Shown: positions 22,410 through 61,774 of the stretch, piece after piece
How positions within the stretch are numbered: the first letter of the stretch is position 1
How the letters are laid out: every line of letters begins with the position of its first letter
NCBI RefSeq assembly: GCF_003725535.1
Contig: NZ_RJSF01000047.1
Coordinates: 203,972-267,971 of the forward strand
Source: Nocardioides pocheonensis
Lineage (GTDB): Bacteria; Actinomycetota; Actinomycetes; Propionibacteriales; Nocardioidaceae
Length of the DNA: 64,000 nucleotides
Direction of reading: 5' to 3'
Position numbers and translations under genes: made by a program
Notes under the pieces: model-generated
The model's database searches: none
Seen by the model: only the letters and a program-made list of their open reading frames with translations
What the model was told of the DNA's origin: nothing

Positions 22410-22447
22410 TTGACTACGGCCAAGCTATTACATTAACGTTCGTTCAA
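22410..22447 (+). promoter_or_regulatory. Promoter with shared motif, site a
   Basis: TTGACT (-35, 22410-22415) is followed at about 16-17 bases by ATTAAC/TTAACG (-10 region). The motif TTAACGTTCGTTCAA (22433-22447) overlaps the -10. It is one of eight related motifs at promoters in the window. It leaves a leader of about 180 bases before the Tat-exported hydrolase gene; the gap 22140-22622 holds no gene. Confidence 0.55.
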
Positions 22448-22622
22448 CCGCGAATACTCCGTGTCATGCCCCACAAACAGCGCTTGATCCGCCGTAAGGA
22501 AATGGGCAGCGCGCGTTCGGCCGCCACGCCTAACAACATCCGAGATCGCTCCGAAGGTTCGCCGCCGCATGTCGGCGGGCGCCTCACTCGGCGATGTCAG
22601 CAACTTCGAAGGAACTGATCGA

Positions 22623-23702
22623 ATGAAGATTCCTACCGCCGTCGCAAGACCAGACCTTCCTACTTGCGACATGGGCCTCAACGAGGATGCTTCGCCTCAG
22701 GCACCCCTCAGCGGATTCTCACGTAGGACTCTGATCGGTGCTGGAATGGCAACGGCGGCGTTCGTCGCCCTCGATCGGGCAACTCCCGCCATGGCCACCG
22801 GCTCGCAGGGCGGTGGCGGGGATCGGCTGATCTTCCTCGGGACCATGGGCGGCCCGGTGATCAATACCAAGAGAGCGCAGACAGCCACCGTACTCGCGGT
22901 CGGCGGATCCCAATACCTGATCGACTGTGGCTACGCGGTTGGACGGCAGATGGCCGCGGCAGGTCTTGGCATGCAGCAGATCTCCGACATCTTCATTACC
23001 CATCACCACTCCGACCACGTAGCAGACCTTCCTGGCCTTCTACTGCTTACCTGGTACGGCGCGGGCCGCACCGGCACCCACGTGTGGGGTCCGCCGCCCG
23101 TCGAGCGCATGATTGGCCTCATCCCTGAACTGTTCTCCGTCGACGTCGAGTCACGCGTGGAGGAGGGGATGGACATCCCGTTCGACGAGTCGGTAACTTC
23201 CCACGGCTTCACGCTGCCGGCCGTAGGGACGGTTCGCGTGATGGAAGATGACAATGTCACGGTTGACGCCGTCCGCGTGCCTCATGGTGACGACATTCAT
23301 GACGCGTATGCCTACCGGTTCGACATCAAGAGCACAGGCCGCTCCGTCGTCTTCTCGGGCGACTGTCGAGCTAACGAGAACTTGATTGCTCTGGCCGACG
23401 GGGCCGACTTCCTAGTGCACGAGATCATGTCGGTGCCCGGCGCCGAGGCACTCATCCAGACTGTGCCGCCAGGACCGGCCCGCGACGCATTTCGTGAGCA
23501 CCTCTTCACTTCCCATACGACGGCCCAGGGCCTCGTTCACGCAGCGAAGGCAGCGCAGGTCAAGGCGATCGTTCTCTACCACTATGTGCCCGGATTCATG
23601 CCTACCGGCGACTTCGTGGCTGAGGTCCGGGTCGAGGCAACCAAGCAGGGCTACCAGGGGCGAGTCATCGGAACGAGCGACCTCACAGAGGTGGGCGTCT
23701 GA
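22623..23702 (+). CDS. Tat-exported MBL-fold metallo-hydrolase
   Basis: 359 residues. The twin-arginine signal is SRRTLIGAG (33-41) followed by a hydrophobic stretch and an AMA-type cleavage site at about 56-58. The metal motif is THHHSDHVADLPG (HHHSDH at 127-132), with VFSGDCRANENL and LYHYVPG later; this is the RNase Z/arylsulfatase-like branch. It should act outside the membrane on an ester, lactone or sulfate. ATG 22623 follows GAAGGAA. It stands alone behind promoter site a. Confidence 0.85.
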   Translation: MKIPTAVARPDLPTCDMGLNEDASPQAPLSGFSRRTLIGAGMATAAFVALDRATPAMATGSQGGGGDRLIFLGTMGGPVINTKRAQTATVLAVGGSQYLIDCGYAVGRQMAAAGLGMQQISDIFITHHHSDHVADLPGLLLLTWYGAGRTGTHVWGPPPVERMIGLIPELFSVDVESRVEEGMDIPFDESVTSHGFTLPAVGTVRVMEDDNVTVDAVRVPHGDDIHDAYAYRFDIKSTGRSVVFSGDCRANENLIALADGADFLVHEIMSVPGAEALIQTVPPGPARDAFREHLFTSHTTAQGLVHAAKAAQVKAIVLYHYVPGFMPTGDFVAEVRVEATKQGYQGRVIGTSDLTEVGV

Positions 23703-24039
23703 GGTCTGCGCCCATTTTCACCGAAGCGGGCGAGTTTTCGGCTGCGCCGGGAGCCTGAAGACCCCCGCGTCCGCTCGGAGCGCACTCTTTCGCTTCGCAG
23801 GGGCCTGGATTGTCGCCTGATGGCGTGGACCGGTGGCTCTTCGAATGTGCAGCGCGACCTTTGCGCGACGCGCGGGCGCGCACTAGTTGCCGCCTGACCG
23901 TGTGCACGTTCGCGGTTCACTGGCTCAACCAGAAATTCGCCGCCGGCGTGATGCGGAGTTTCGACGTCGCCAATGCGGAGGCGACATCGGCTAGTAGGTG
24001 ACAGCCCGTTCCCCGCATGACAACTCCGGCAAGCCGCTT
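23703..24039. other. Convergent intergenic stretch
   Basis: 337 bases between two converging genes. I see no supported coding frame. GC-rich self-complementary runs (for example GCGCGACG...CGCGCGG near 23855-23880) could act as weak terminators, but none is followed by a T-run. Confidence 0.4.
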
Positions 24040-26355
24040 CTAGGCAGACGGCTCAAGCCGGACGATCACAGACTTCGACGTGGGGGTGTTGCTGTCCAGT
24101 GCTGCGGAGCCGAGCGGTACGAGGGGGTTGGTCTCGGGATAGTAGGCGGCGGCGGTGCCTCGTGGGGTCTCGTAGTCGACGAGCCGGAAGTTGCGGACGC
24201 GGCGGTCGCGGTCGTCTTCGGGCCAGTGCGCGACGATGTCGACGAGTTGACCGGGATGGAGCCCGAGGGCTTCGTGGTCGCGGGGGTTGACCATCACGAT
24301 GTGCCGGCCGCCCTCGATGCCGCGGTAGCGGTCGGAGAGGCCGTAGATCGTGGTGTTGAACTGGTCGTGGCTGCGCAGCGTCTGCAGCACCAGATGGCCC
24401 GGGGGTACGTCGAGCAGCTCGATCGCCGAGACCGTGAACTGTGCCCTCGCCGACGGGGTGGTGAAGGTGCGGCTGTCGCGCGGCGGGTGCGGCAGCACGA
24501 ACCCGCCCGGACTGCTGACCCGCGCCTCGTAGTCGGTGAACCCGGGCACCACCCGTTCGATGCCCTGCCGGATGGTCCGGTAGTCGCCGCGCATCCCGGC
24601 CCAGTCGATGGCCGGGTCGCTCGTGCTGTCGACGGATCGCGACCCGAGGGTGGCCTCGGCCAGCCCGGTGACGATCGCAACCTCCGAGCGCAGCTGCTCG
24701 CTGGCCGGCGCCAGCCGGCCCCGGGAGGCGTGCACCACCGACATCGAGTCCTCCACGGTCACGTGCTGCGGTCCCCCGGCCTGCTCGTCACGCTCGGTGC
24801 GACCCAGGGTGGGCAGGATCAACGCGGTCGCCCCGGTGATCAGGTGCGAGCGGTTCAGCTTGGTCGAGACCTGCACGCTCAGCGCGGTCCGCCGCAGCGC
24901 CTCGGCGGTGAGCTCGGTGTCCGGGGCCGCGTGCAGGAAGTTGCCGCCCAGAGCGACGAACACCTTCGCGTCCCCGGCCAGCATCGCGTGGATGCACTCC
25001 ACCGTGTCATAGCCGTGCTCGCGCGGCGGCTCGAAGCCGTACTCGGCGGCGAGCGCGTCGAGGAACCACGCCGGCGGCTTCTCCCAGATCCCCATCGTCC
25101 GGTCACCCTGGACGTTGGAATGCCCCCGTACCGGGCACAACCCGGCACCGGGCTTGCCGAGGTCACCACGGGCCAGGGCGAGGTTGACGACCTCCTTGAT
25201 CGTCGCCACCGCGTTGCGGTGCTGGGTCAGCCCCATCGCCCAGCAGTACACGGTGGCCTTCGAGGCGGCGATCATCCGCGCCGCCTCGGTGACCTGGTCC
25301 CGGGTCAGCCCGGTCGCCTCGGTGACCTGGTCCCAGTCCACGGCCCTGACGTGGTCCCGCCACGCCTCGAAACCCTCGGTGTAGTCCTCGACGAACTCGT
25401 GGTCGACCGCGTCCCACTCCACCAGCAGCGAACCGATCGCCTGGAACAACGCCAGGTCACCGTTCAGCCGCACCGGCAGGTGCAGGTCGGTCAGGCCGGT
25501 GCCCCGCCCGAGCACGCCGCGGGCCTTCTGCGGGTTGCGGAAGTTCACCAGCCCGGCCTCCCGCAGCGGGTTGACCGCGATGATCCTCGCACCACGCTTC
25601 TTGGCCTCCTCCAGCGCCGACAGCATCCGCGGATGGTTGGTGCCCGGGTTCTGCCCGGCGATCACGATCACCTCCGCCGCGTGCAGGTCCTCCAGGCTGA
25701 CGCTGCCCTTGCCGATCCCGATCGTCTCGATCAACGCCACCCCACTGGACTCGTGGCACATGTTCGAGCAGTCCGGCAGGTTGTTGGTCCCGAACGCCCG
25801 CACGAACAACTGGTAGACGAACGCCGCCTCGTTCGACGCCCGCCCCGAGGTGTAGAACACCGCCTCATCCGGAGACGACAGCCCGTTGAGCTGCTCCGCG
25901 ACGAGCGCGAACGCGCCCTCCCAGCCGATCGGCTCGTAGTGCGTGGCGCCCTCCCGACGGACCATCGGCTCGGTGAGCCGGCCCTGCTTGCCCAGCCAGT
26001 GGTCGGTGCGCTGCAGCAGGTCACTGACCGGATGCTCGGCGAAGAACCCCGCCGTGACCCGCGCCTTCGTCGCCTCCTCCGCGACCGCCTTCGCACCGTT
26101 CTCACAGAACTCCGCACGATGCCGATGCTCCGGATCCGGATCCGGCCACGCACAACTCATGCAGTCGAAACCATCAGCCTGGTTCAACCGCAACAACGTG
26201 CGCGCCGACCGCGACGGACCCATCTGACGCAGCGCACGCCCCATCGCCACCCCGACCGCCTTCACCCCCGCCGCATGGTCCTGCGGCACCTCCACGTGCA
26301 GCCGCGACTCGTCCGAGGACCCGAGGAGCTCCTCACCCATGCCCGTCACGCTCAC
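24040..26355 (-). CDS. FdhF/YdeP-family molybdopterin oxidoreductase (formate dehydrogenase-like)
   Basis: 771 residues with the bis-MGD oxidoreductase architecture. An N-terminal Cys pair is in FDCMSCAWPDPD, the molybdopterin domains hold TSGRASNEAA and CSNMCHESSGVAL, and the C-terminal dinucleotide-binding domain contains HDQFNTTIYGLSDRYRG. It probably oxidises formate to CO2. Being last after the formaldehyde and folate genes, it is the natural end of that pathway. The start is GTG 26355; ATG 26340 is possible. It lies 18 bases after the MBL hydrolase stop. Confidence 0.85.
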   Translation of the reverse strand: MSVTGMGEELLGSSDESRLHVEVPQDHAAGVKAVGVAMGRALRQMGPSRSARTLLRLNQADGFDCMSCAWPDPDPEHRHRAEFCENGAKAVAEEATKARVTAGFFAEHPVSDLLQRTDHWLGKQGRLTEPMVRREGATHYEPIGWEGAFALVAEQLNGLSSPDEAVFYTSGRASNEAAFVYQLFVRAFGTNNLPDCSNMCHESSGVALIETIGIGKGSVSLEDLHAAEVIVIAGQNPGTNHPRMLSALEEAKKRGARIIAVNPLREAGLVNFRNPQKARGVLGRGTGLTDLHLPVRLNGDLALFQAIGSLLVEWDAVDHEFVEDYTEGFEAWRDHVRAVDWDQVTEATGLTRDQVTEAARMIAASKATVYCWAMGLTQHRNAVATIKEVVNLALARGDLGKPGAGLCPVRGHSNVQGDRTMGIWEKPPAWFLDALAAEYGFEPPREHGYDTVECIHAMLAGDAKVFVALGGNFLHAAPDTELTAEALRRTALSVQVSTKLNRSHLITGATALILPTLGRTERDEQAGGPQHVTVEDSMSVVHASRGRLAPASEQLRSEVAIVTGLAEATLGSRSVDSTSDPAIDWAGMRGDYRTIRQGIERVVPGFTDYEARVSSPGGFVLPHPPRDSRTFTTPSARAQFTVSAIELLDVPPGHLVLQTLRSHDQFNTTIYGLSDRYRGIEGGRHIVMVNPRDHEALGLHPGQLVDIVAHWPEDDRDRRVRNFRLVDYETPRGTAAAYYPETNPLVPLGSAALDSNTPTSKSVIVRLEPSA

Positions 26356-26373
26356 CCGCCGGCGGCCCGTGGT

Positions 26374-27045
26374 TCAGGGGGTTGCCTCCTCGCCGCGGAG
26401 CCGTCGGCTACGACTCAGGATCCTCCTGCTCATCAGTCGCGTGCGTTCGGCGCCGATGGTCGTATCGTCCCCGTGCCCGGCGTGGACCACGGTCTGCAGG
26501 GGCAACGTGAACAGCCGATCAGTAATCGATCCCTCGAGGATGGAACGGTCGCTGTAGGACCGGCCGGTTGCGCCCGGTCCGCCCTGGAAGAGCGTGTCAC
26601 CGGTGAACACGCTGCCCAGTTCCGCGGCGTACAGGCAGATTGCGCCGGGCGCATGCCCGGGTGTGTGCAGCGCCCGGAGTGTCGCGCCGCCGATCTCGAT
26701 CTCTTGGTCGTGGGACAAATCGTGGTCCCACCGGTCGTCGGCGTGGGTGAGGTCCCACAGCGGCTTGTCGTCCGGGTGCAGGAATATCGGCGCACCGACC
26801 GCCTCGCGCAGCGCGGGCGCGGCCCGAACGTGGTCGTCGTGCGCGTGCGTGCAGAGGATCGCTTTCACCTTCCGGTCTCCCGCGACAGCGAGGATGGCTT
26901 CGACGCTGTGCGGAGCGTCGATCACCACGCACTCGGCATCGTCACCGACGACCCAGACATTGTTCTCGACCTGGAACGTCTGCCCGTCCAGGCTGAACGT
27001 GCCCGCAGTGACGGCGTGGTCGACCCTGGCTCGGACTCTCGACAT
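26374..27045 (-). CDS. MBL-fold hydrolase paired with mycothiol-dependent dehydrogenase
   Basis: 223 residues. The zinc motif CTHAHDDHV (HAHDDH at 67-72) is followed by HTPGHAPGAICLY and FTGDTLFQGGPG, as in glyoxalase-II-type hydrolases. Its start overlaps the stop of the mycothiol-dependent dehydrogenase gene (TGATG). The same gene pair is adjacent in mycobacteria (mscR and its neighbour). It probably hydrolyses S-formylmycothiol to formate and mycothiol; this is inference from pairing. Confidence 0.8.
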   Translation of the reverse strand: MSRVRARVDHAVTAGTFSLDGQTFQVENNVWVVGDDAECVVIDAPHSVEAILAVAGDRKVKAILCTHAHDDHVRAAPALREAVGAPIFLHPDDKPLWDLTHADDRWDHDLSHDQEIEIGGATLRALHTPGHAPGAICLYAAELGSVFTGDTLFQGGPGATGRSYSDRSILEGSITDRLFTLPLQTVVHAGHGDDTTIGAERTRLMSRRILSRSRRLRGEEATP

Positions 27046-28157
27046 CAGAAGATCACCACGGACCGCAGCACGTCACCGTCGTGCATCCGGGCAAACGCCT
27101 GCTCCACCTCGTCCAGCTTGATCTCCTCGGTGACGAAGCCATCCAGGTCGAGGCGACCCTGCAAGTACAGATCGACCAGCATCGGGAAGTCACGCGACGG
27201 CAGGCAGTCGCCGTACCAGCTCGACTTCAGAGCGCCTCCCCTGCCGAAGACATCGATGAGCGGCAGGTCGGGAACCTTCATGTCCGGTGTAGGAACACCG
27301 ACCAGTACGACGGTCCCGGCGAGGTCACGCGCGTAGAACGCCTGCTGCCACGTCTCCGGACGGCCGACCGCCTCGATGACCACATCGGCTCCATCGGCGC
27401 CCGGCTGAGCCTGCCGCGCGATCGCCCGGATCGCCTCGACCGGGTCGACGCGGGACGAGTCGACAAGGTGGGTCGCGCCCATCTCCTGGGCCTTCGCGAG
27501 CTTGTTGGCGTCGATGTCCACCGCGATGATCGGCGAGGCACCTGCCAGCGCGGCACCCGCGACGGAGGCGACTCCGACGCCGCCGCAGCCGATGACGGCC
27601 ACCGACTTGCCCCGCGTTGCTCCGCCGGTGTTGATGGCAGCACCGAGCCCCGCCATGACCCCGCAGCCGAGCAGACCTACCGCGGCCGGTCGGGCCAGCG
27701 GATCGACAGGAGTGCATTGACCGGCTGCCACCAGGGTCTTCTCAGCGAATGCGCCGATGCCCAGCGCGGGCGAAAGCTCGGCGCCGGCATCGGGTCCGTC
27801 GGCCAATGTCATCTTCTGGGTCGCGTTGTGCGTCGCGAAGCAGTACCAAGGCTCACCCCGATTACAGGCACGACACCGACCGCAGACGGCACGCCAGTTG
27901 AGGATCACGAAATCGCCGGGCTTCACCGAGGTCACCTCCGGCCCGATTGCCTCGACAACGCCCGCCGCCTCGTGGCCCAGGAGGAACGGAAATTCGTCGT
28001 TGATCCCGCCCTCCCGGTAGTGGAGGTCCGTGTGGCAGACCCCGCAGGCCTGGACCTTCACCACCGCCTCCCCCGGACCCGGGCTGGGCACATTGATCGT
28101 GGCGACTTCGACCGGCTGACCCTTGCGGCGCGCGACGACTGCCTTCACCTGCTGCAT
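27045..28157 (-). CDS. mscR: S-(hydroxymethyl)mycothiol dehydrogenase
   Basis: 370-residue zinc alcohol dehydrogenase of the mycothiol-dependent formaldehyde dehydrogenase group. Visible are the catalytic zinc Cys in [23 protein letters not shown], the structural zinc cluster [15 protein letters not shown] and the nucleotide fold [15 protein letters not shown]. It oxidises the formaldehyde-mycothiol adduct to S-formylmycothiol with NAD+. The gene order places it between FolD/PurU and the MBL hydrolase and formate dehydrogenase. It also marks the host as a mycothiol-making actinobacterium. Confidence 0.9.
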
Positions 28158-28233
28158 CGCTATCTCCTTTTCCTAAGCCCGGACACCCACGGATTCGGTC
28201 GCCCTTTCGCGGAGAGACCCGAGCGGTTCTTGC

Positions 28234-29082
28234 TCAGAGTCCCCGTTCGGCGATCGACACGACGTTGGCCAGCAGCATCGCCCGGGTCATCGGGCCTACG
28301 CCCCCGGGATTCGGGGAGACCCAGCCGGCGACGTCCCAGACGTCCGCGGCGACGTCCCCGGCGATCCTGCCGTCGACGCGCGAGACCCCTACGTCGAGCA
28401 CCGCGGCGCCGGGCTTGACCATGTCGCCGGTGACGATGCCCGGCACTCCCGCGGCCGCCACCACGATGTCGGCGGTGCGCACGTGCGCGGCCAGGTCGCG
28501 GGTGCCGGTGTGGCACAGCGTGACCGTGGCGTTCTCGCTCTTGCGGGTCAGCAGCAGCCCGAGCGGACGCCCGACCGTGACCCCGCGACCGACCACGACC
28601 ACCTCCGCCCCGGCGATCTGTACGCCGTGCCGGCGCAGCAGCTCGATGATGCCGTTCGGCGTGCACGGCAGCGGCGCGTCCTGCCCGAGCACCAGCCAGC
28701 CGAGGTTCGTCGGGTGCAGCCCGTCGGCGTCCTTGGCGGGGTCGATCAGGCCGAGCACGCGGTTCTCGTCACGACCCTCCGGGAGTGGCAGCTGCACGAT
28801 GTAGCCCGTGCACGCCGGGTCGGCGTTCAGCTGCGCGACGGCCGCCTCGATCTCCTCCTGGCTCGCGGACTCGGGCAGGTCGATGCGGATCGACTCGATC
28901 CCGACCTCCGCGCAGTCCTTGTGCTTGCCGTTGACGTACCAGCGCGAGCCGGGGTCGTCGCCCACCAGCACGGTGCCCAGTCCCGGCACGACGCCCTGCT
29001 CGCGCAGCGCGGCGACGCGGGACTTGAGCTCACCCTTGATCGCGGCCGCAGTCGCCGATCCGTCCAGCGTCTGAGGGGCCAC
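28234..29082 (-). CDS. folD: Methylene-tetrahydrofolate dehydrogenase/cyclohydrolase
   Basis: 282 residues. The catalytic Lys region is [17 protein letters not shown], the substrate segment PLPEG and the signature [14 protein letters not shown]. It converts 5,10-methylene-THF to 10-formyl-THF. GTG 29082 is three bases after the PurU stop, so the two are co-translated. This is probably a second, pathway-dedicated FolD, since it sits in a catabolic operon. Confidence 0.93.
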
Positions 29083-29085
29083 GGG

Positions 29086-29997
29086 TCAGAACACGACCGT
29101 GGTGTTGCCGTGACGAAGCACCCTGTCCTCACAGTGCCAGCCAACTGCGCGCGCGAGGACGGTTCGTTCCACGTCAGCGCCAAGGCGAGTCAGAGCACCG
29201 ACGTCGTGGCAGTGGCTCACGCGGTTGACGTCCTGCTCAATGATCGGCCCTTCGTCGAGATCCTCGGTGACGTAGTGGGCCGTAGCGCCGATCAGCTTGA
29301 CGCCGCGTTCGCGGGCTCGCGCATATGGGCCGGCCCCGGCAAAGGCGGGCAGGAATGAGTGATGGATGTTGATCACTGGTACGCCGACCAGCCGAAGGAA
29401 ATCTCCGGAGAGAATCTGCATGTAGCGCGCAAGTACGACCAAGTCACAGGTGCCGTCGAGCAGCTCGAGCAGCTGACGCTCCGCTTCGGGCTTCTCCGCG
29501 GGGTTTGCAACCGGGATGTGATGGAACGGAAGCCCTTGGGCCTCAACTGCTTCCCGGTGGTCGGCATGGTTGGAGGCAACCAGGACGACCTCCGCCTCGA
29601 GCTCGTTGCGCCGCCACCGATACAGCAGATCCTGAAGGCAGTGGTCCTGCTTGGACACCAGAATGGCGACTCGCTTGGGTACGGCTGGGTTGCCGAACCG
29701 CCATGTCATGCCGAATCGCTCGGCGACCGCTCCGAAGCGCTCTGCGAGACCTTCGACGACGTGATCGGTCCCGGCGAACTCCATGCGCAGGAAGAAGGTG
29801 CCCCCGAACGGGTCCGATGAGTACTGGTCGGACTGGATGATGTTTGCGCCCGCATCGTGCAACAAGCGGGAGACCGCAGCAACGATCCCGGGCTGGTCGG
29901 CACAAGAGGCGAGGAGGCGACGTCGCGCAAGCGGTTTGGCCTCGGCAGGAGCCGCACTTGCAACTCGTTCTTCGAGTACGGTGCGGGTCGGGGTCAT
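29086..29997 (-). CDS. purU: Formyltetrahydrofolate deformylase
   Basis: 303 residues. An N-terminal ACT-like domain ([22 protein letters not shown], about 31-52) precedes a formyltransferase-like hydrolase domain with [19 protein letters not shown] and the Asp in TEDLDEGPI. It releases formate from 10-formyl-THF and so regenerates THF. The start overlaps the stop of the GcvT-like gene by four bases (ATGA). Together with FolD it turns methylene-THF into formate. Confidence 0.93.
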
Positions 29998-31106: not shown

Positions 31107-31168
31107 CGGGCTTCCTTTCTGTGGCCAACCTTCGTCAATCCACGGCTTCTCGCGGATACCGAAGGCGG

Positions 31169-31795: not shown

Positions 31796-31796
31796 G

Positions 31797-32674: not shown

Positions 32675-32728
32675 CGGTCCTCTCTCGGGCTCGAAGGTCT
32701 TTACGCGTCTGCGAAGTTGAGGCATGTG

Positions 32729-52349: not shown

Positions 52350-52371
52350 CCTGGTACCTCACCTCTACTGA

Positions 52372-52386
52372 TTGACATTCGTTCAT
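52372..52386 (-). promoter_or_regulatory. Shared motif, site f
   Basis: Plus-strand TTGACATTCGTTCAT resembles the consensus TTAACGTTCATTCAA. It lies 23 bases upstream of the saccharopine dehydrogenase-like gene, within a 93-base gap behind HyuB. I could not assign -35/-10 boxes for the minus strand with confidence. Confidence 0.45.
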
Positions 52387-52442
52387 GGAGCCGCCGCGCC
52401 CGCCCCGCGCGCCCGGCCGGCGCGCTCTCGGGGGGTGTCGAA

Positions 52443-54221
52443 CTAGGCGGAGTCGGACATGGCTGCGGAGCGCCTGGACGCGGTAGCGATCTCGTCCACC
52501 GCGAGACCATCCGATGCTTCGATGAACGCGACGCCGTAGGTCTCCGTGGCGTGCGACGCGGTTTCCCACCCCTCGAGCACGTCTTCGAGGACCAGAGCAG
52601 GGTCGCGCTCGAGCGGGGACCCGTATCCCCCGCCGGACGCGTCGAAGCCATGGATTACCTCGCCGGCTTTCAGCACCAGCGTCGCGGTGTTCGGCAGTCG
52701 CGTGCGCGAGCCATCCGGCGTTTCCAGCCAGGACTCTGCGGTTCGACCGTCCGCGCCGCCAGCGACGCCCTTCGACGGGTTGACCTGTCCGTCGCAGGGG
52801 TAGATCACCGTGATGGGGTTCTCTTTCGGCGTGTATGCAAGCTCGAAGGATGGGCCGCCCCGGTACTTCCCGGCACCACCGGTGTCGGTTACGAGGCGCA
52901 GGTGCTTGTACACGATGGGCATCTTGATCTCGTCGATCTCGACTGAGTCCCTGTACATCAGACCGCTCACGCACGGGACGCCATAGGTGACCCAGCCATC
53001 GGCATGGGCGCTGCCCGGTCCGCCGTTCGCGGTGACCACCAGCTGGTTCACGAACGCGTCGCCGGTGCGAGCGTCAACACCCGAGAGCACGGCGTACCCG
53101 ACTCCGACACCGACCGCACCCTCGGCGACGCCGTACGGTGCCCCGAGCTGGGCGAATGCGGCGCCGACGCAGTTGATGAGGCGGTCGGTCACGTTGGTGG
53201 TGGCGAGCGAGCAGCTGTGTGGGAACTGGGGCTTGCCGACGGCTGATCCGTCGTTCATGTCGATGACCACCCGCCGGAACGCGCCTGAGTTCTTGGGGAT
53301 GCTCATCGGAATCGCGTTGAAGATGCCCCCGAAGACGGCCGCTCGTGTGGTCGCCTCCGTCATGTTCAGGCCGCAGTCGACGTTGGGGGCGTTCTCGGTC
53401 AGGTCGACGTGGATGATTCCTTCATCCGGCTTGATCTCGATGGTGACCCCGATCTCCAGCCCGTCGGGCAGGTAAGGCTCGAAGGCGTCATGCTTGCCGG
53501 TGTTGTGAAGGGTGGCGGCGGGAAGGCTCTCGATCGCGTTGACCATCACCTTCTCGCTGTAGTCCAGCCAGTCGCGGATGAACGCCTTGATCGTGGCCGC
53601 TCCGTACTTCGCGACGAGCTCCTTGAGCCGGCGTTCTGCGATCCGAGCTGAACCGATCGCGGCGAGAAAGTCGCCGTACCACTGAGACGGCACCCGGATA
53701 CGCGAGCGGCACATGCGGATGACGTCATCAACGTTTTGGTAGTCCGACTGAACCTTCACGGTCGGGAAGATGAGAGCGCCTTCTTCGTACACGTCCTTCG
53801 CAGCGGCGTGGTAGGTCGTCGGGATGGAGTTCCCGATGTCGGCCTGGTGCGCCTTCGAGACGGCGGTGAAGAGGTGCTCGCCATCGACGAAGACGGGCAC
53901 CAGGATGGTGTGGTCGGCGGCATGCGAGTTACCGATGTACGGGTTGTTGTCGAGGAAGGCGTCACCCTCCCGCAGATCGGGGTGAGCCTCGCTCATTGCT
54001 GCGGCCTGTAGCTGTGCGCCGAAGATGTGGACCGGGATGCCCTCGGCAGCAGCCAGCAGTTCGTGATCGGCCGTGAGGATGGCGCAGGAGAAGTCGCGCG
54101 CGCTGTTGATGACCGCTGACCGTGCCGATCGGAGGAGGGTGTTGGTCATCTCCCGGACGATCCCGTCGACCTTGTTGGCGATCACTGCCGTCCGGACCGC
54201 ATCGAAGGTGGTGTCGTTCAT
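52443..54221 (-). CDS. hyuB: Hydantoinase B/oxoprolinase-family subunit
   Basis: 592 residues, the usual HyuB length. Landmarks are RSAVINSARDFSCAIL near residue 35, NNPYIGNSHAADHTILVPVF and the C-terminal GVAGGADG and DASGGGYGSP. With HyuA it forms an ATP-dependent amidohydrolase or carboxylase: N-methylhydantoinase, 5-oxoprolinase, caprolactamase and acetone or acetophenone carboxylase all belong here. ATG 54221 is two bases after the HyuA stop. Symbol refers to the family, not to a proven hydantoinase. Confidence 0.88.
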   Translation of the reverse strand: MNDTTFDAVRTAVIANKVDGIVREMTNTLLRSARSAVINSARDFSCAILTADHELLAAAEGIPVHIFGAQLQAAAMSEAHPDLREGDAFLDNNPYIGNSHAADHTILVPVFVDGEHLFTAVSKAHQADIGNSIPTTYHAAAKDVYEEGALIFPTVKVQSDYQNVDDVIRMCRSRIRVPSQWYGDFLAAIGSARIAERRLKELVAKYGAATIKAFIRDWLDYSEKVMVNAIESLPAATLHNTGKHDAFEPYLPDGLEIGVTIEIKPDEGIIHVDLTENAPNVDCGLNMTEATTRAAVFGGIFNAIPMSIPKNSGAFRRVVIDMNDGSAVGKPQFPHSCSLATTNVTDRLINCVGAAFAQLGAPYGVAEGAVGVGVGYAVLSGVDARTGDAFVNQLVVTANGGPGSAHADGWVTYGVPCVSGLMYRDSVEIDEIKMPIVYKHLRLVTDTGGAGKYRGGPSFELAYTPKENPITVIYPCDGQVNPSKGVAGGADGRTAESWLETPDGSRTRLPNTATLVLKAGEVIHGFDASGGGYGSPLERDPALVLEDVLEGWETASHATETYGVAFIEASDGLAVDEIATASRRSAAMSDSA

Positions 54222-54223
54222 GG

Positions 54224-56302
54224 TCAGGCCCCGTTCGTGATGTGAAGGAGGTAGTTCCCGCTGTCGCTGACTTCGGCCGCCATGCCCGGGTATACGACGA
54301 CGGTCGTGGTGGGCTCCTCGATGATGGCGGGGCCCTGCAGCCGAGTTCCGGGTAGGAGTTGGTCGGGCTTGAACACCGGCGTGTCGAGCTCGCCCGCCTC
54401 GCCGAAGTAGCACCTGCGCACGGAGGCGGGCTCCCCGATGCGCTCGGTGGAGACGTCGTAGGTCTTCTGTGCGCGCGGAAGGCATACGGTTACCCGAGCT
54501 CGCCAATTCAGGAACTCGATCGTCGATCCCGGATCCCGGACAGCGAGGATGCGGTCGTGCAGGTCGTGGAAGGCCTCGAACAATCGTCGCTGGCCGGCCT
54601 CGTCAACGACGTCCTTGCTCGGGAGCGGGAGGTCGATGGTCCAGATCTGGCTCTGGTAGCGCGCCTCGACGCCGAACTCCATCGAGTAGTCGGGGTAGTG
54701 GTCTCCGAAGCGCGACGCGAACTCCGCGAGGGCGGCTTCCAGGTCAGCTAGCACCTTGGCGACACTCTTGGCGGCGAATGCCTCGGACGAGGTGATCAGA
54801 GCAGCCGACTCCTCCTTCACGATGTCAGCGAAATGCATGCCTGAGGCCGACAGCGCGGAGGCGACCTTGGGGAGGATCACGCGCTGCGAGCCGAGCTCGT
54901 TTGCGATCTGCATGATGTTGATTCCGGCCGCTCCACCGCCGGCGACCAGCGTGCTCTCCTGGGGGTTGAGTCCCTGCGCGATGGTGATCTCATGCACGGC
55001 CTTGACCATCGACTCGCTCGCGATGGAGAGAATCCCCCACGCCGTCTCGCGGACGCCGAGACCGAGCACCCCTGCGACCTTGGCGATCGCCGCCTCGGCG
55101 GCGGCCGTATCCAAGGCCATCCGGCCCCCGAGGAAGTAGTCGGGATCGAAGTAGCCGAGGACGCACGCGGCGTCCGACAGGGTCGGCTCCATGCCGCCGT
55201 TGCCGTAACAAGCAGGTCCAGGTTCGGAGCCGGCGGACTGGGGGCCGACCCGGAGGAGTCCGCCGCCGTCGACCCAGGCGATCGAGCCACCGCCAGCACC
55301 GATCGACCGGATGTCAACGGAGGAGATGCCGAGGAGGTCACCTTCCCACTGGGGTCCGATCCAGGTGTCTCGGGAATGGACGACGGCTCCGTCGCGGGAA
55401 AGTCCGACGTCGAAGGTGGTGCCGCCTGTGTCGCAGACGATCATGTCACCGCCGAGTTTCTCGAGCAGCGAATAGTTCAGACCGGCCAGCGGCGCCATGG
55501 AAGGACCGCTCTTCGCGGCATGTATGGGCGACTCGATGACCTCCTCGATCGTCATGACACCACCCATGCTGGTGGACACCAGGATCGCGCCGTTGTAACC
55601 GAAGTCACGGAGGTCCTGCTCGAGCTCGGAGAAGTGCGCTTGCATCAGTGGCTTGAGGGACGCGTCGATCGCCGCCGCCGACGTGCGCCGGTACTCACGG
55701 ATGATCGGGGCGATCTTGTGCGACAACGTGACCGGGAGCTCGGGAGCAACCTTCTCCAGCAGTTCCGCGACGCGCAGCTCATGGGCAGGATTCGCGATGG
55801 ACCACAGGAGTGAGACGGCCACCGCCTCGAAACCCTCGTCACGGATCATCGTGAGCGTCTCGAGCAGTCGGTGATCGTCGAGCTCCTCAAGAACGCGGCC
55901 CTCGGAGTCGACGCGTTCCGTGATACCGAACGTGTGACGTCGCGGGATGTACGGGTTGGGATACCGCCGCGTGAAGTCGTAGCCGTCCTGCTTTCCGCCT
56001 TCCTTGAGGACGAGAACGTCCTCGAAGCCAGCCGTGGTCAACAGTGCAGTCTTCGCGACGTTGCGCGTGACGATCGCGTTGGTGGCCCGCGTCGTGCCGT
56101 AGACGAAGAGATCCGTCTGACTCAGCAGCGCCTTCCCAGTGAGCCCGATCTCGCCGGCGGCCGCGTCCAGGGCGGCGGACAGACCGCGGAAGACCCGGTC
56201 ATGGGTGGTGAGCGCCTTGCCGATGACCTGCTCGCTCGCGGCGTCCTGGATCACCACGTCAATGAAGGTGCCGCCCGTGTCTGCGGAGACTTGGTATGCC
56301 AT
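54224..56302 (-). CDS. hyuA: Hydantoinase A/oxoprolinase-family subunit
   Basis: 692 residues with an ASKHA-type ATPase: SADTGGTFIDVVI at the N-terminus and CDTGGTTFDVGLSRDG (phosphate loops), GAGGGSIAWVDGGG and LVAGGGAAGINI. The length fits single-subunit-pair HyuA. It couples ATP use to opening of a lactam or imide, or to carboxylation of a ketone. The operon with hyuB has its own promoter (site d). In this context a cyclic amide or a ketone intermediate is possible. Confidence 0.88.
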   Translation of the reverse strand: MAYQVSADTGGTFIDVVIQDAASEQVIGKALTTHDRVFRGLSAALDAAAGEIGLTGKALLSQTDLFVYGTTRATNAIVTRNVAKTALLTTAGFEDVLVLKEGGKQDGYDFTRRYPNPYIPRRHTFGITERVDSEGRVLEELDDHRLLETLTMIRDEGFEAVAVSLLWSIANPAHELRVAELLEKVAPELPVTLSHKIAPIIREYRRTSAAAIDASLKPLMQAHFSELEQDLRDFGYNGAILVSTSMGGVMTIEEVIESPIHAAKSGPSMAPLAGLNYSLLEKLGGDMIVCDTGGTTFDVGLSRDGAVVHSRDTWIGPQWEGDLLGISSVDIRSIGAGGGSIAWVDGGGLLRVGPQSAGSEPGPACYGNGGMEPTLSDAACVLGYFDPDYFLGGRMALDTAAAEAAIAKVAGVLGLGVRETAWGILSIASESMVKAVHEITIAQGLNPQESTLVAGGGAAGINIMQIANELGSQRVILPKVASALSASGMHFADIVKEESAALITSSEAFAAKSVAKVLADLEAALAEFASRFGDHYPDYSMEFGVEARYQSQIWTIDLPLPSKDVVDEAGQRRLFEAFHDLHDRILAVRDPGSTIEFLNWRARVTVCLPRAQKTYDVSTERIGEPASVRRCYFGEAGELDTPVFKPDQLLPGTRLQGPAIIEEPTTTVVVYPGMAAEVSDSGNYLLHITNGA

Positions 56303-56374
56303 CGAAACTCTCCCTGCTGGTCGTCCTTGCGGCAGCCGGCCCCGGCTCTCTCGAGCCGGACGACTACCCTCCTT

Positions 56375-56403
56375 ATTAAACGTTAAGTAAACGGAGCCGT
56401 CAA
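56375..56403 (-). promoter_or_regulatory. Promoter with variant shared motif, site d
   Basis: Minus strand: TTGACG (-35, 56403-56398), 17 bases, TTTAAT (-10, 56380-56375). TTAAACGTTAAG (56376-56387, plus strand) overlaps the -10 and shares the AACGTTAA core with site c. It drives hyuAB. Confidence 0.65.
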
Positions 56404-56416
56404 GTGCCCGCTGCGG

Positions 56417-56821
56417 CTACGAGAGGTCCCCGAAGAAGCCTTCAACTTCGGCCTGGTTCATGTCGTTGAAGTAGCACTCGACGATCTTTCCGCCGGCGAA
56501 CTTGTAGGAGCCCAGGCGCTTCGTGGTCACGGCGCGGTCCCCTCGGGTCCATGTTTCGCGGACCATGAGCAAGACCCCGTCCTCACCGGCGATCAGCAGA
56601 TCGTTCCCCTCGACATCCCACGAATCCGTGTAGTCGGCAACTCGGCCGATCCAGTCGCGCGTGAAGGACTCGCGTCCGTGATAAGTGCCTGCCAGAGGCC
56701 CACTCCCAGCCATGTGGACGACCACGTCGTCGGCATAGAAGGCCATTCCGGCCTCTTGGTCGCCACGCTCCCAGGCATCGTGGTACTCCTTCAGCAGAGC
56801 CAAGGTCGATTCGGTGCTCAT
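56417..56821 (-). CDS. SnoaL/NTF2-like protein
   Basis: 134 residues. LALLKEYHDAWERGDQEAGMAFYADDVVVHMAGSGP is the typical opening of an NTF2-like cone fold, and DVEGN... with Asp/His residues lines the pocket. Members are isomerases, cyclases or hydratases such as ketosteroid isomerase or limonene-epoxide-hydrolase relatives. ATG 56821 has GGAGATCC upstream. It is the last gene of the operon led by the P450 reductase at 61.7 kb. Confidence 0.8.
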   Translation of the reverse strand: MSTESTLALLKEYHDAWERGDQEAGMAFYADDVVVHMAGSGPLAGTYHGRESFTRDWIGRVADYTDSWDVEGNDLLIAGEDGVLLMVRETWTRGDRAVTTKRLGSYKFAGGKIVECYFNDMNQAEVEGFFGDLS

Positions 56822-56914
56822 CGGATCTCCTTCGAGTTCGCCACGCGACGTGGCATGGTCGGGTAGTTGGGGCCGCCCTCGGGGGTTCGCCCCTAGTGAC
56901 ATATGGCGCAGTGG

Positions 56915-57685
56915 TCAGATCGGATTCCTGGCTGCGGCAAGCCAGCCGCCGTCGATGACCATCGCCGCGCCGTGGATGTAGCCGGCGTCGTCGCCTGCGA
57001 GGTAGACGGCGAGCTTCGCGATCTCCTCCGGAGTGCACCAGCGCTGCGCTGGAATGCGACCGAGCTCTGCCTCGGTGTCCGGCAGGAAGTCAGAGCCACC
57101 TTCGGGCATCGTCAGGCCTGTCGCCGTCGCGCCTGGACAGATCGCGTTGACCCGGATTCCGCGACGGCCGTAATCGAAGGACAGCTGGCGGGTCAGACCC
57201 AGGACGCCGTGCTTGGCAGCGGTGTACGCCGAACCGCCCCCGGCGGCGCTGAAGGAGGAGATGCTCGCCGTGTTGACGATGACGCCTTCGCCGCGCTCGA
57301 GCATGCCGGGGATGACTGCACGGGCCATCAGGAACGGGCCGGTGAGATCGACGGCGATGGTGCGGTGCCATTCTTCGAGTGGGATCTCGTGCGCAGGCCG
57401 GAAGCTGTCGACGATGCCGGCGTTGTTGCACAAGACGTGAACACCACCACCCCATTCGGCGATCTCCGACATGGCGCTGTCGACCGACTCGACGCTGCTC
57501 ACGTCGACATGCACAGGCAGGCCCTGATCTGGATTCTCCAGAGCCTTCACTGTCGCGACAGCGCTGACCTCGTTGATGTCCAAGGCGGCAACACGGGCCC
57601 CTTGAGCGACGAACTCTTGGACCATCGCTCGGCCCATGCCGGAACCAGCCCCGGTGACGACAACTACCTTGTCGTGAAATGACAT
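56915..57685 (-). CDS. SDR-family oxidoreductase
   Basis: 256 residues. TGAGSGMG, NNAGIV, NTASISS and YTAAK motifs; the C-terminus has YIHGAAMVIDGGWLAA. It should oxidise a hydroxylated intermediate. It is 81 bases downstream of the enoyl-CoA hydratase and 93 bases upstream of the SnoaL-like gene. Confidence 0.86.
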   Translation of the reverse strand: MSFHDKVVVVTGAGSGMGRAMVQEFVAQGARVAALDINEVSAVATVKALENPDQGLPVHVDVSSVESVDSAMSEIAEWGGGVHVLCNNAGIVDSFRPAHEIPLEEWHRTIAVDLTGPFLMARAVIPGMLERGEGVIVNTASISSFSAAGGGSAYTAAKHGVLGLTRQLSFDYGRRGIRVNAICPGATATGLTMPEGGSDFLPDTEAELGRIPAQRWCTPEEIAKLAVYLAGDDAGYIHGAAMVIDGGWLAAARNPI

Positions 57686-57766
57686 GCTGCTATCTCCTTG
57701 CGTTGATGAGACTGATGAGCGACTGTGAGCGCTCGCAGTGGGGTCGTCGTCGAAGGCTGGGCACCG

Positions 57767-58549
57767 TTACCGGCCGGCCCAATTCGGGGTGCGACCCTCT
57801 GCGAAGGCACGGGCGCCTTCCTGAGCGTCAGCGGTCTCGCTGATGCCGGACACAAGCGGCACAGCTTTGCGTAGCCGGTCGAACGCCTCCTGGTCCGACA
57901 AACCCTCGACTTCGCGGACAGCCTTCAGCGTGGCTTCGACGGACAGCGGTGCCGAGAGACAGACCTCTTGGGCCAGCTCGAGAGCGGCACCCAGCACGTC
58001 GGCCGGCGAGACGATGCGGTTGACGAGGCCCCATCTCAGCGCCTCATCGACCGAGAACGTCCGAGCCGTCAGTAGCAGTTCGAGTGCCAACGGCCGGGGA
58101 AGAAGCGCCGGCAGTCGGTTGAGCCCGCCCGCATCCGGCAACAGGCCCAGTCTGGCCTCAGGAAACGCAAAACGAGCTTCGGACGAAGCCACCACCATGT
58201 GCGCAGCCAGCATCAGTTCTACCCCGCCTCCGTAGGCCGCGCCGTTCACCGCAGCTATGACGGGCTTCTTGAGGCCGGGGAACTCCGTCAAACCGGCGAA
58301 TCCTCCGGGCCCATGGTCGGCGTGGTGAGCCTCACCGTCGGCTGCCGCCTTGAGATCCCATCCGGCGCTGAAGAAGCGGTTGCCCGCAGCCGTGATGACA
58401 CCGACTCTCAGGTCATCACGTGTGTTCAACTCAGCGAACGCTTCGTAGAGCGCTCGGCTCGTCCGTGCGTCGATGGCGTTTGCTTTCGGCCGATCGAGCG
58501 TGATGATGAGCGTCGCGTCCCGCTGCTCGGTGCGAACGCCTTGATGCAT
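57767..58549 (-). CDS. Enoyl-CoA hydratase/isomerase family protein
   Basis: 260 residues. ITLDRPKANAID, NGAAYGGGVELMLAAHMVVA (oxyanion hole) and EARLGLLPDAGGLNRL are standard crotonase motifs. It should hydrate an enoyl-CoA. ATG 58549 is used; GTG 58555 is nearer to the AAGGAC ribosome site and could be the start. It is 46 bases downstream of the second P450. Confidence 0.86.
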   Translation of the reverse strand: MHQGVRTEQRDATLIITLDRPKANAIDARTSRALYEAFAELNTRDDLRVGVITAAGNRFFSAGWDLKAAADGEAHHADHGPGGFAGLTEFPGLKKPVIAAVNGAAYGGGVELMLAAHMVVASSEARFAFPEARLGLLPDAGGLNRLPALLPRPLALELLLTARTFSVDEALRWGLVNRIVSPADVLGAALELAQEVCLSAPLSVEATLKAVREVEGLSDQEAFDRLRKAVPLVSGISETADAQEGARAFAEGRTPNWAGR

Positions 58550-58595
58550 GGCCACGTCAGTCCTTCTCACTGTTCGATCTCGAAGCGCGCCGCCT

Positions 58596-59804
58596 TCAGG
58601 AGAGGCGCACGGTGAGGCCCTCGCAGTTGCGGTGGCGGTCCGAGAACACCCAGTCCGGTTCACCAACAACCTCGACCCGCTCGAAGCGCTCGGTAATCAC
58701 ATCGAGCACCGCGGTGGCCGTGGCTCGAGCGATTGCCTGACCAGCACAGTTGTGCGTACCGACACCGAAGGCGAGCGCCATGCTCGCCTCCTTGGGCCGT
58801 TCCCAGTCGAACTCGTCCGGATTCCTGAAAACGTCGGGGTCACGCAGCGCCGCACCGAGGATGAACCTGATCTTGGCGCCTGGCGGGATGGTCACGCCAT
58901 GGATCTCCAGGGGTGCCGTGGTGAACCGATCCAGGAGTACCTCTGGCAGTGCCCGGCGGATCGTCTCGTTCAAGATCGCCTCACGCACGCTGGGATCCTT
59001 CTTGTAGGCCGTGAAGGCGTGCGGATTGTTGGCGAAGTCAACCAGCGCGGAGCTCACGTGGTGCCCGGGGTTGTGAGCCGCAGATCCCCAGAGGATCTGG
59101 ATGGACTCCTTGAGCTCGCGCTCGGTGAGCTGCCCCTCGTCCGCAGCACGGATCATGGTGTCGAGGAGCATGCCGTCACCAGGGTTATGCCGCTTCTCGG
59201 CGATCAGTCGCTCAGCCTGGAACATCATGAAGCCGAAGCCCTCGCGAGCCCTGACGACCTCGTCGTCGGTCGGTTGCCAGCCCATCGCCACCATCGTCTG
59301 GTTCGTCGCCCTGATGTACGGGAAGCCGTCTTCGCGCTCAACGCCCAGCGCATGTGCCATGGCGTCCTGCGCCGGCTGCACACCGAGGTTGCGATGCGCG
59401 TCGATCAGACCGTCGTCTTCGATGCGGTCCAGGGCCTCCTTGGCCGTTCGAGCGGCGGTCTCAGCCCAGGTCCTGACAGCCTTGGGTGTCAGCCAGCCAC
59501 TGAAGGTCCGTCTAATTCGTGAGTGCCGCTCGCCTTCGGTGAGAAGCACGGAGTTCTCGTTCGCAGCCCAGGGATCGTCGCCCATTCCCTCTGGCGGAAC
59601 AGAGACCAGGGAACGGTCCTTGGCGTAGGTCATCACGTCGTGGTAGCGGCTCACGACGAACGTGCCATCCGACAGTTCAAACAGTGGGTGGTCCCGCAGT
59701 ACGCGGTCGAACCACGGCCAGGGCGCGCGGATGAACTCCGGATCGCGCCACGGGAGTAGCTCATCGCTCGTCGCCGTGGCGTCAACAGCCCCGTGCTGCT
59801 CCAT
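58596..59804 (-). CDS. Cytochrome P450 with non-canonical I-helix, second copy
   Basis: 402 residues. The heme loop is FGVGTHNCAGQ (Cys353) and the ExxR pair NETIRR (E280/R283). The I-helix reads LWGSAAHNPGHHVSSAL (about 238-254): no acid and no Thr at the oxygen-activation site. ATG 59804 follows GGAGA; ATG 59816 is possible. Upstream in the operon are flavodoxin and an FprA-like reductase, a full electron chain. P450cin, the cineole hydroxylase, also uses a flavodoxin and lacks the usual Thr, but close kinship is not shown. Confidence 0.9.
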   Translation of the reverse strand: MEQHGAVDATATSDELLPWRDPEFIRAPWPWFDRVLRDHPLFELSDGTFVVSRYHDVMTYAKDRSLVSVPPEGMGDDPWAANENSVLLTEGERHSRIRRTFSGWLTPKAVRTWAETAARTAKEALDRIEDDGLIDAHRNLGVQPAQDAMAHALGVEREDGFPYIRATNQTMVAMGWQPTDDEVVRAREGFGFMMFQAERLIAEKRHNPGDGMLLDTMIRAADEGQLTERELKESIQILWGSAAHNPGHHVSSALVDFANNPHAFTAYKKDPSVREAILNETIRRALPEVLLDRFTTAPLEIHGVTIPPGAKIRFILGAALRDPDVFRNPDEFDWERPKEASMALAFGVGTHNCAGQAIARATATAVLDVITERFERVEVVGEPDWVFSDRHRNCEGLTVRLS

Positions 59805-59877
59805 CAATTTCTCCATTCCACGTTGCGGCAGGGCACGTCGAGCCCCATGTCTGCCTTCCTCGGTGCGAGCTTGCGCA

Positions 59878-60333
59878 CTAGTCGAGAGCCACGTCGTCGA
59901 GCAGTTGCTTCAACCAACCCAGCGCCGTGTCGCTGTAGGACTCGCCGCCCGATGCGTCGTGTCGGCCGGTCTCACCGACCTGGGTCGCCCCGAGCTCGGT
60001 CAACGTGCTGGCGAGCACCGTGACGGCGTTGTTGTAGGTGTCGTAGGTCCGGTCTCCCAGCCCGAAGGCAGCGAACCGCAGGGACCGAAGGTCCGGCTTC
60101 GCGGTCACCAATGCGTCGTGGAACGGAGCGGTGGTCATCGGGAGTTCGCCATCGCCGTAGGTCGAGGTGATGAAGATGGCGAAGTCGGCCGACGTCAGTA
60201 GGTCGACTTCGAAGTTCTCCATGGCACTGACCTCGTGCTCGAGCCCCCTGCCCTCGAGAGCATCGGCAATGTCATCGGCGACCATCTCCGCGTTGCCTGA
60301 CTCGGTGCCGAAAAGAATCTGAATCGGTCCCAC
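59878..60333 (-). CDS. Flavodoxin-domain protein
   Basis: 151 residues. ILFGTESGNAEMVADDIADAL binds the FMN phosphate; STYGDGELPMTT and FGLGDRTYDTYNN are the other FMN loops. It carries single electrons, here probably from the FprA-like reductase to the P450. GTG 60333 follows AAAGGACACC. The genes on either side are the reductase and the P450. Confidence 0.88.
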   Translation of the reverse strand: MGPIQILFGTESGNAEMVADDIADALEGRGLEHEVSAMENFEVDLLTSADFAIFITSTYGDGELPMTTAPFHDALVTAKPDLRSLRFAAFGLGDRTYDTYNNAVTVLASTLTELGATQVGETGRHDASGGESYSDTALGWLKQLLDDVALD

Positions 60334-60394
60334 GTATGGTGTCCTTTCATGCTGGGTTGACCGGGACTCGTCGAGCGCCGACGAGGTCCCTGAG

Positions 60395-61678
60395 CTATGT
60401 CGACTGGAGTGCCGGACGACCAGAACCGACGGCGACGCCGACCATCTCGTCCAAGTCGGTGACTTTCCTGCGGCAGCGACTGTCAAGAGCCAGCCCGCGC
60501 TCGTGCTCGTCGAGCCTGCGCCAGTCGTCGAACTCCACGACGAACGGGGCGATCTGCGACCAGACGGCGGACAGGCCCGGCTTCCCGGGGGCGAGGAGGC
60601 CCTCGCGCAGGGCCGCACCGATGCTTTCGCTAATCTGCGACGCGTCGCGTCGGTTCTCCGGAATCGTGCCGCGGGCACCCCGGCGCAGCCATCCCACACG
60701 CCACACATTTGGTGCGCTCCACGAGACGGGGGCAGAGTCGTCACCCGCAACGAACCCGGCCGCAGTAATGATCGAATCCGCTTCGTACCGCCTGATCCGC
60801 GACGCGTCGTCGGTCCCTTCTGTCTCCAGCACCGCGCGACCGTCGGCGTACGTCACAGCCGTCGGAGACTGACCGAAGTGGAAGGTCACCTGGATTTCCT
60901 CGCCGGTCTCAACCCCACGCGCCTTGTCTCGAGAAGCGGCGAGGTCGCGCAAGAGGCCGATGACTGGATTCTCCTCGTCGCCGGCCGTCTCCCCAATGGC
61001 GAGGTCGACGTTCGACAGGTGCCCGAGCTCGCGCAGCATCGCGAGGTCGAATTTTGCGTTCGAGGCGGTCGAACGCCCGATGACTTCGATCTGCTCGACG
61101 GGTAGGGGGCGCAGGAGGTCCAGCACCCGATCGTCCACGTCCGACCCAGCCAGGGCGCTTCGGTCCTTCGCCAGCAGGCGCAGTGCGTCTATGGCGACAT
61201 TGCCGTTGCCGACGATCGCGATCCGACTTCCCAGAGGGGCGCTCAACTCAGGCGAGCGACCCAGATCCGGGTAGCCATTGAGCCCGCGGAGCAAGATGCC
61301 CGCACCGAGCACCCGCGCCCGGGGATCTTGCCGCACACCAAGCGGACGGTCCTGCATCAGGCCGGTGGCCAGGACGACAATGTCGAACGCCTCGACCAGT
61401 TCCGCGAAGTCCAGATCGGTGCCGATCCGCACGTTACCGAGGAACCGAACCCGGTCCCGTTCGAAGAGCCGGTCGAATTGGCACGTCACTGCCTTGGCGC
61501 CCTGATGGTCCGTAGCGACGCCGTATCGCACAAGGCCGTAAGGGGCGGGCAGCGCGTCGAATACGGCGATCTCGCTGGTAGGCCACAGCTTCCTGAGGAA
61601 CTGCGCGGTGTAGCAACCCGATGGGCCGCTTCCCACGACGGCGATCGTCGGGGAACTCCCGCTTGGCGGTCGGTTCAC
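60395..61678 (-). CDS. Ferredoxin/flavodoxin-NADP reductase (FprA/adrenodoxin-reductase-like)
   Basis: 427 residues. FAD motif VVGSGPSGCYTAQFL, then YGLVRYGVATDHQGAK, and the NADPH motif IVGNGNVAIDALRLLA, all as in FprA and adrenodoxin reductase. It reduces the flavodoxin with NADPH. GTG 61678 has AAGGGG upstream. It is first in the operon reductase, flavodoxin, P450, enoyl-CoA hydratase, SDR, SnoaL-like, behind promoter site e. Confidence 0.9.
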   Translation of the reverse strand: MNRPPSGSSPTIAVVGSGPSGCYTAQFLRKLWPTSEIAVFDALPAPYGLVRYGVATDHQGAKAVTCQFDRLFERDRVRFLGNVRIGTDLDFAELVEAFDIVVLATGLMQDRPLGVRQDPRARVLGAGILLRGLNGYPDLGRSPELSAPLGSRIAIVGNGNVAIDALRLLAKDRSALAGSDVDDRVLDLLRPLPVEQIEVIGRSTASNAKFDLAMLRELGHLSNVDLAIGETAGDEENPVIGLLRDLAASRDKARGVETGEEIQVTFHFGQSPTAVTYADGRAVLETEGTDDASRIRRYEADSIITAAGFVAGDDSAPVSWSAPNVWRVGWLRRGARGTIPENRRDASQISESIGAALREGLLAPGKPGLSAVWSQIAPFVVEFDDWRRLDEHERGLALDSRCRRKVTDLDEMVGVAVGSGRPALQST

Positions 61679-61732
61679 GACGGCTACCCCTTCTGCTCAG
61701 CGGATCCGGATCGAAGGCATTCCACAGTGTTC

Positions 61733-61774
61733 TTGAATGAACGTTAATGTAACAGCGCCGAGTGACCCAGACAA
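61733..61774 (-). promoter_or_regulatory. Promoter with shared motif, site e
   Basis: Minus strand: TTGTCT (-35, 61774-61769), 17 bases, TACATT (-10, 61751-61746). The motif TTAACGTTCATTCAA (61747-61733) overlaps the -10 by two bases. It is almost identical to site a. It drives the second P450 operon. Confidence 0.7.

Follow-up and report, generated by a model that had tools for sequence, protein, structure and literature searches.

A quasi-palindromic motif local to a catabolic gene cluster of Nocardioides pocheonensis is the predicted operator of the TetR-family protein TetR1

The window is a stretch of 64,000 nucleotides from the genome of Nocardioides pocheonensis; coordinates above 64000 continue its numbering into the same contig. 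Four regulators are recognised between 22 and 77 kb: PucR, LuxR, TetR1 and TetR2. Genes were called with a simple GC-by-codon-position score, and their starts are approximate. We infer the operon status of the following units from gene order and strand.

24040-32725, minus strand, after site b: CoA-transferase A/B, GcvT, PurU, FolD, S-(hydroxymethyl)mycothiol dehydrogenase, MBL hydrolase, FdhF-like oxidoreductase
33945-38648: HCDH-FMO-hydrolase-SDR unit, without the motif
38437-40083: PucR-type regulator, beside the HCDH-FMO-hydrolase-SDR unit
40181-46507, minus strand, after site d: P450a, SDR3, PntA, PntB, cupin2, SDR2
46794-47483, plus strand: TetR1, with the Pfam domains TetR_N and TetR_C_24
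47467-56302, minus strand, after site g: hyuA, hyuB, SacDH, BKACE, ADH2, acyl-CoA ligase
56417-61678, minus strand, after site h: flavoprotein, flavodoxin, P450b, enoyl-CoA hydratase (ECH1), SDR4, SnoaL-like protein
61878-64295: LuxR-type protein
76363-77058: TetR2, beside site k

The gene at 27045-28157 is assigned as S-(hydroxymethyl)mycothiol dehydrogenase by TIGR03451 (637.5, cut-off 512.9). HyuA scores 523.1 with the NCBIfam caprolactamase model NF050156, below its cut-off of 1000, and the acetophenone carboxylase gamma model gives 314.3 against a cut-off of 1500. PucR and the motif-free HCDH-FMO-hydrolase-SDR unit are possibly a separately controlled branch.

Eleven sites, a to k, carry the motif. 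The matrix has 21 columns and was trained on the eight sites of the original prediction, a to h.

Site a, 22433-22447, plus strand: before the MBL-fold hydrolase 22569-23702; matrix, exact pattern match and promoter geometry
Site b, 32729-32743, minus strand: 4 bases before CoA-transferase A; TTGACA-17-GATACT
Site c, 33368-33382, minus strand: before cupin 32813-33274; TTGACC-17-TACTTT
Site d, 46543-46557, plus strand: before the P450a unit; TTGACA-17-GTTAAT
Site e, 46680-46694, minus strand: 100 bases before TetR1; the only -35 candidate is TTGGGC
Site f, 52372-52386, plus strand: between hyuB and SacDH; a weak case, leave-one-out score 18.5
Site g, 56372-56386, minus strand: before hyuA; TTGACG-17-TTTAAT; conserved in five genomes
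Site h, 61733-61747, minus strand: before the flavoprotein-flavodoxin-P450b unit; TTGTCT-17-TACATT
Site i, 67970-67984: before permease 66409-67923; score 18.2 with the matrix untrained on it
Site j, 68481-68495: before acyl-CoA ligase 68635-70329; score 19.7 with the matrix untrained on it
Site k, 75939-75953: before permease 74249-75757; score 12.8 with the matrix untrained on it

All eight predicted sites are present, e and g being shifted to the coordinates given here in the present register. The Tat hydrolase named among the predicted targets we take to be the metallo-beta-lactamase-fold (MBL) hydrolase after site a, its signal peptide being only presumed. Leave-one-out matrix scores of the eight range from 17.4 to 30.8. 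Site k has an overlapping register in the opposite orientation that scores 19.1, and an extra site scoring 12.8 lies at 76122, about 240 bases before TetR2.

The motif is real and local to the cluster. With up to three mismatches, TTAACGTTCATTCAA matches five times in the window, where 0.21 matches are expected and none of 100 shuffles reaches five. At the same tolerance, TTAACGTTCRTTCAA matches 19 times in the whole genome (4.92 Mb) and its reversed control eight times; nine of the 19 fall within one 54-kb stretch of contig 46 (C46:226404-279924). Its exact matches are two genome-wide, sites a and h. The degenerate pattern YTKAAYGNNCRTTMAR was dropped for matrices, being too loose genome-wide: with two mismatches it gives 38 forward matches and 30 reversed-control matches in this genome, and with one mismatch in five relatives (forward/control) 10/10, 6/10, 5/2, 8/2 and 4/0.

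The best genome-wide matches are located at 226-280 kb of contig 46. An equal frequency of the motif elsewhere had been named as the outcome that would count against the prediction; in 393,408 bases elsewhere in the same genome there are three sites of at least 12 and none of at least 14. The 42 kb to the left of the motif region (window -19971 to 22000) hold two of at least 12 and none of at least 16, and the one at 1205 (15.7) is part of a different palindrome. To the right, the untrained 62-80 kb of the same contig have four sites of at least 12, compared with a mean of 0.2 and a maximum of 3 for permuted matrices (n = 500). The regulon had been placed at 22-62 kb; the sites are there, but that end is too early, and the series runs on to about 76 kb. 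A model built from the eleven sites (R1) returns seven matches genome-wide at E <= 10, all in-sample: a, b, d, e, h, i and k of the training set. It misses c, f, g and j and matches nothing outside the training set.

TetR1 orthologues of 58-64% identity occur in five relatives: Mycolicibacterium sp. P9-64 (P964), Mycobacterium sp. 852013-50091 (M852), Gordonia polyisoprenivorans (Gpol), Mycobacterium sp. GA-2829 (GA28) and an actinobacterial MAG. The block hyuAB-SacDH-BKACE-ADH2-ligase//TetR1 is kept in the first four, with BKACE at about 84%; ECH1 lies inside the hyuAB block there and in the P450b unit here. The MAG has different gene content, yet TetR1 and the motif remain. Two open frames of 525-526 amino acids (L046:5908-7485 and L059:6470-8050) have no Pfam match; frames of similar size hold the same place in the relatives' clusters, and none has been paired with a protein of the window.

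The scan of genome and relatives that the original prediction had proposed finds the motif confined to the cluster here and recurring in the relatives' clusters. The window-trained matrix detects 26 sites of at least 12 in the five cluster cores (142 kb): seven each in P964 and M852, and four each in Gpol, GA28 and the MAG. The same contigs hold four in about 223 kb outside the cores, one of them before another permease. On the cores, 200 column-permuted matrices give a mean of 3.0 and a maximum of 10 such sites, and dinucleotide shuffles (20 for each core) average 3.1 in all. At a threshold of 16 there are 16 sites against at most 7 with permuted matrices, and at 20 there are 10 against at most 2. 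By our gene calls, 25 of the 26 sites are intergenic. A second model (R2), built from 21 of the 26, has only two whole-genome matches here at E <= 10, the cluster sites c and h; it is not fully independent, because its sites were chosen with the window matrix. Seed-free EM, unlike R2, is fully independent of that matrix. Given 61 intergenic sequences from the cores of the relatives, it returns tAaTTAACATTCAtTA, the motif; given 66 intergenic sequences outside them, it returns only a degenerate CG-rich pattern.

The hyuA promoter was aligned across five genomes. Besides the start-codon region, the alignment holds at CTTGACR and at CTTACTTAAYRTTNAATAAR (less strictly in Gordonia), and a TTHAAT -10 box lies inside the motif exactly 17 bases after the -35 box in 5/5. 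In the permease promoters of P964, M852 and GA28 and in one of Gordonia, TTGACA/G stands six bases before the 21-base site; in the two permease promoters here the distance is nine bases. No site of at least 12 lies in the CoA-transferase promoters of Gpol, GA28 and the MAG. GcvT, PurU, FolD, the FdhF-like protein, cupin1, FMO and the 22569 hydrolase are without a match in the relatives' regions; two of these regions contain the mycothiol dehydrogenase, and three contain the CoA-transferase. Because their genes mostly lack a match in those regions, operators a, b and c look like later recruitment, or else like losses elsewhere.

The geometry test required a TTG-type -35 box, a -10 box at 16-18 bases and contact of the -10 with the motif. 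It is passed by 16 of 36 sites, several of which are orthologous promoters and so not independent (7 of 11 here; 9 of 25 in the relatives, these being 24 of the 26 sites plus GA28 10169), and a shifted-position control gives a mean of 0.8 and a maximum of 3. This bears out the predicted repressor-type placement; on the sequence, overlap with the -10 box is the geometry of steric repression. Sites a, c, d, g, h, i (67970) and k (75939) pass, b narrowly misses with the motif beginning three bases after the -10, and e, f and j (68481) fail. Promoter boxes 17 bases apart had been assigned to g, h, b, d and e: those of the first four are good, and that of e is weak. Site f is unlikely to be a conserved operator; no promoter was found there in the test, and the hyuB-SacDH interval of P964, M852, GA28 and Gpol has no site of at least 6. 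The motif does sit on the promoters of most units, as had been claimed, with the exception of the PucR gene and the HCDH-FMO-hydrolase-SDR unit (no site of at least 12) and with f as a doubtful member.

TetR1 belongs to the TetR family (TetR_N 62.7 bits, cut-off 24; TetR_C_24 75.7, cut-off 26.4). It falls below the NCBIfam cut-offs for Bacillus-type FadR (NF053878, 52.5 against 200) and for KstR (NF033703, 33.1 against 280). By sequence it is nearest to PfmR. The structure model (pLDDT 78, pTM 0.70) is nearest to AibR with isovaleryl-CoA, closely followed at about the same score by KstR2, DarR and 3him, an uncharacterised protein from Rhodococcus. AibR and KstR2 are CoA-binding and DarR binds c-di-AMP. 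Because DarR and 3him score about equally, the comparison points only faintly to a CoA-thioester ligand; a CoA thioester is nevertheless our best guess for the inducer of TetR1, in keeping with the ligases of the regulon.

The 46794 TetR protein had been proposed as the likely regulator, and its distribution agrees with this. At 1e-15, tblastn finds TetR1 in the regions of all five relatives, together with the motif, and finds no match for PucR, LuxR or TetR2. Its own promoter, also claimed to carry the motif, is a mixed case. Four relatives keep one aligned block, and the MAG shows a variant palindrome, but the site passes the matrix threshold in one of the five (M852); the scores are 7.9 in P964, 9.9 in GA28 and 10.6 in the MAG, and Gpol has none of at least 6. 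The evidence for a putative own-promoter site thus rests mainly on the alignment. In P9-64 a second TetR, a 48% paralogue of TetR1, lies nearby with motif sites. This gene is found at about 60-79 kb of the region G341:C23:521001-601000, near ABC-transporter and acetoacetate-decarboxylase-like genes, and the sites at 60831 and 74189 are perhaps a sister regulon.

The symmetry of the motif varies among sites. Sites h and a read TTACATTAAC|GTTCRTTCAA with the centre AACGTT, while others, such as 67970, read CTTAATG-TT-CATTAAG, so that a 6-base centre stands beside a 2-base one. Palindromic EM of width 20 gives a TTTAATTAACGTTAATTAAA-like best solution with the TTAATGAACGTTCATTAA form second, and non-palindromic solutions fit better than palindromic ones. 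The best reading of the putative operator is a quasi-palindrome around TTAATKAAC|GTTMATTAA. The overlapping registers may reflect two dimers, two binding modes or two related proteins.

Taken as a prediction of binding, the motif is very probably the operator of TetR1, acting as an autoregulated TetR-family repressor. TetR1 dimers would bind the quasi-palindrome TTAATKAAC|GTTMATTAA over the -10 region and would deny RNA polymerase access to ten units. These are TetR1's own gene, the two P450 units, the hyuAB-BKACE operon, the operon with CoA-transferase and one-carbon genes, and the units of the permeases, the cupin, the hydrolase and the second ligase. Release of TetR1 would follow when it binds an intermediate of the pathway, most probably a CoA thioester formed downstream of the acyl-CoA ligase of the cluster. 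The ten units would serve a single pathway. Against this model, one protein need not tolerate both the 6-base and the 2-base centre.

In an alternative reading the sites are divided between two related TetR proteins, those centred on AACGTT being bound by TetR1 and CTTAATG-TT-CATTAAG of the permeases by another, for example TetR2. The two symmetry types and the 48% paralogue near further sites in P9-64 speak for it. The permease sites also score highly with the window-site matrix, however, and the TTAACATTCATTA form occurs in three of the relatives' permease sites, so that we consider this division unlikely. Less probable still is that the sites are true operators of PucR, the LuxR-type protein or TetR2. 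All three are encoded here, and TetR2 adjoins site k and follows the site at 76122, but the motif-carrying regions of the five relatives lack tblastn matches for them at 1e-15, and a quasi-palindrome over -10 boxes is TetR-like. The reading that hardly deserves credence is that the genome is GC-rich and the motif simply reflects the AT-rich -10 region that its ordinary promoters have. The sites do overlap -10 boxes; yet the 393 kb of control sequence and the column-permuted matrices of the same composition yield too little for this, the conservation reaches past the -10 on both sides, and the only two R2 matches in the genome are cluster sites.

Among comparable known systems, KstR2, which controls steroid catabolism in Mycobacterium, has 21% identity to TetR1, and its genes and its operator, reportedly AnCAAGnnCTTGnT, differ. 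PfmR of Thermus thermophilus (3vpr) has 25% identity, and its operator also differs. AibR of Myxococcus, responding to isovaleryl-CoA, has 21% identity, whereas the ligand of TetR1 is only predicted. Among the FadR proteins of Bacillus and Thermus, the Thermus operator consensus, given as TTRNACYNRGTNYAA (PMC5597230), differs from the TetR1 motif. Sulfolobus acidocaldarius FadR is described in similar terms: this TetR protein has few sites in its genome, a part of them within the cluster that encodes it and upstream of its own gene, and it has two binding modes depending on the operator (PMC6449355). TetR1 resembles it in the few sites, the own cluster and the place before its own gene, but the Sulfolobus protein is archaeal and acts on fatty-acid genes, and the likeness is one of description.

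Repression by a TetR protein that covers the -10 boxes of a local catabolic cluster is a well-known mechanism. The proposed regulon is new but of a familiar kind; titles and abstract openings in a literature search contained no description of it, nor of this cluster or its substrate. The substrate is perhaps an N-methylated cyclic amine or lactam, since the cluster combines hyuAB and BKACE with permeases, formaldehyde disposal and P450s that come with redox partners of their own. Plasmid-borne BKACE relatives in Sphingobium TomTYG46 (72.7%) and Arthrobacter NicSoilB8 (68.8%) lie among other annotated genes. Among the best 7-8 candidates listed per genome, no TetR1 orthologue appears in 340 other genomes of a family sample, 390 of an order sample or 393 of a class sample; the samples overlap, and misses are possible. 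This absence, together with presence in Mycolicibacterium and Gordonia, makes transfer of the TetR1-operator unit likely. The THF/formate one-carbon operon is absent from the relatives' cluster regions. Tentatively, and with rather less than even confidence in the whole, we suggest that TetR1 and its operators are a self-contained unit that spreads from one actinobacterial lineage to another together with a catabolic pathway not yet described, that the operator has here captured the THF/formate one-carbon operon, and that the inducer is a CoA thioester of the pathway. Tying ten scattered units to one switch indicates which genes to study as one system, the motif offers a means of detecting the system elsewhere, in further genomes, and the substrate becomes approachable because a TetR1 reporter would allow a search for the inducer.

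Two further elements lie near the cluster. An operator-like palindrome, YAAAGGAAC-N6-GTTCCTTTR, occurs at window positions 1198-1221 and 1664-1687, with other copies left of the window at C46:186675, 186899 and 203681. With up to three mismatches, these five are the genome-wide total, all within 19 kb adjoining the cluster, and the reversed control gives none. Nearby genes encode a flavin reductase, a GMC oxidoreductase, an enoyl-CoA hydratase and two acyl-CoA ligases, and the arrangement looks like a second, putative local regulon. On the minus strand at 17793-17860, the window matches the Rfam family ASdes (68.3 bits, threshold 40), a family described from M. tuberculosis.
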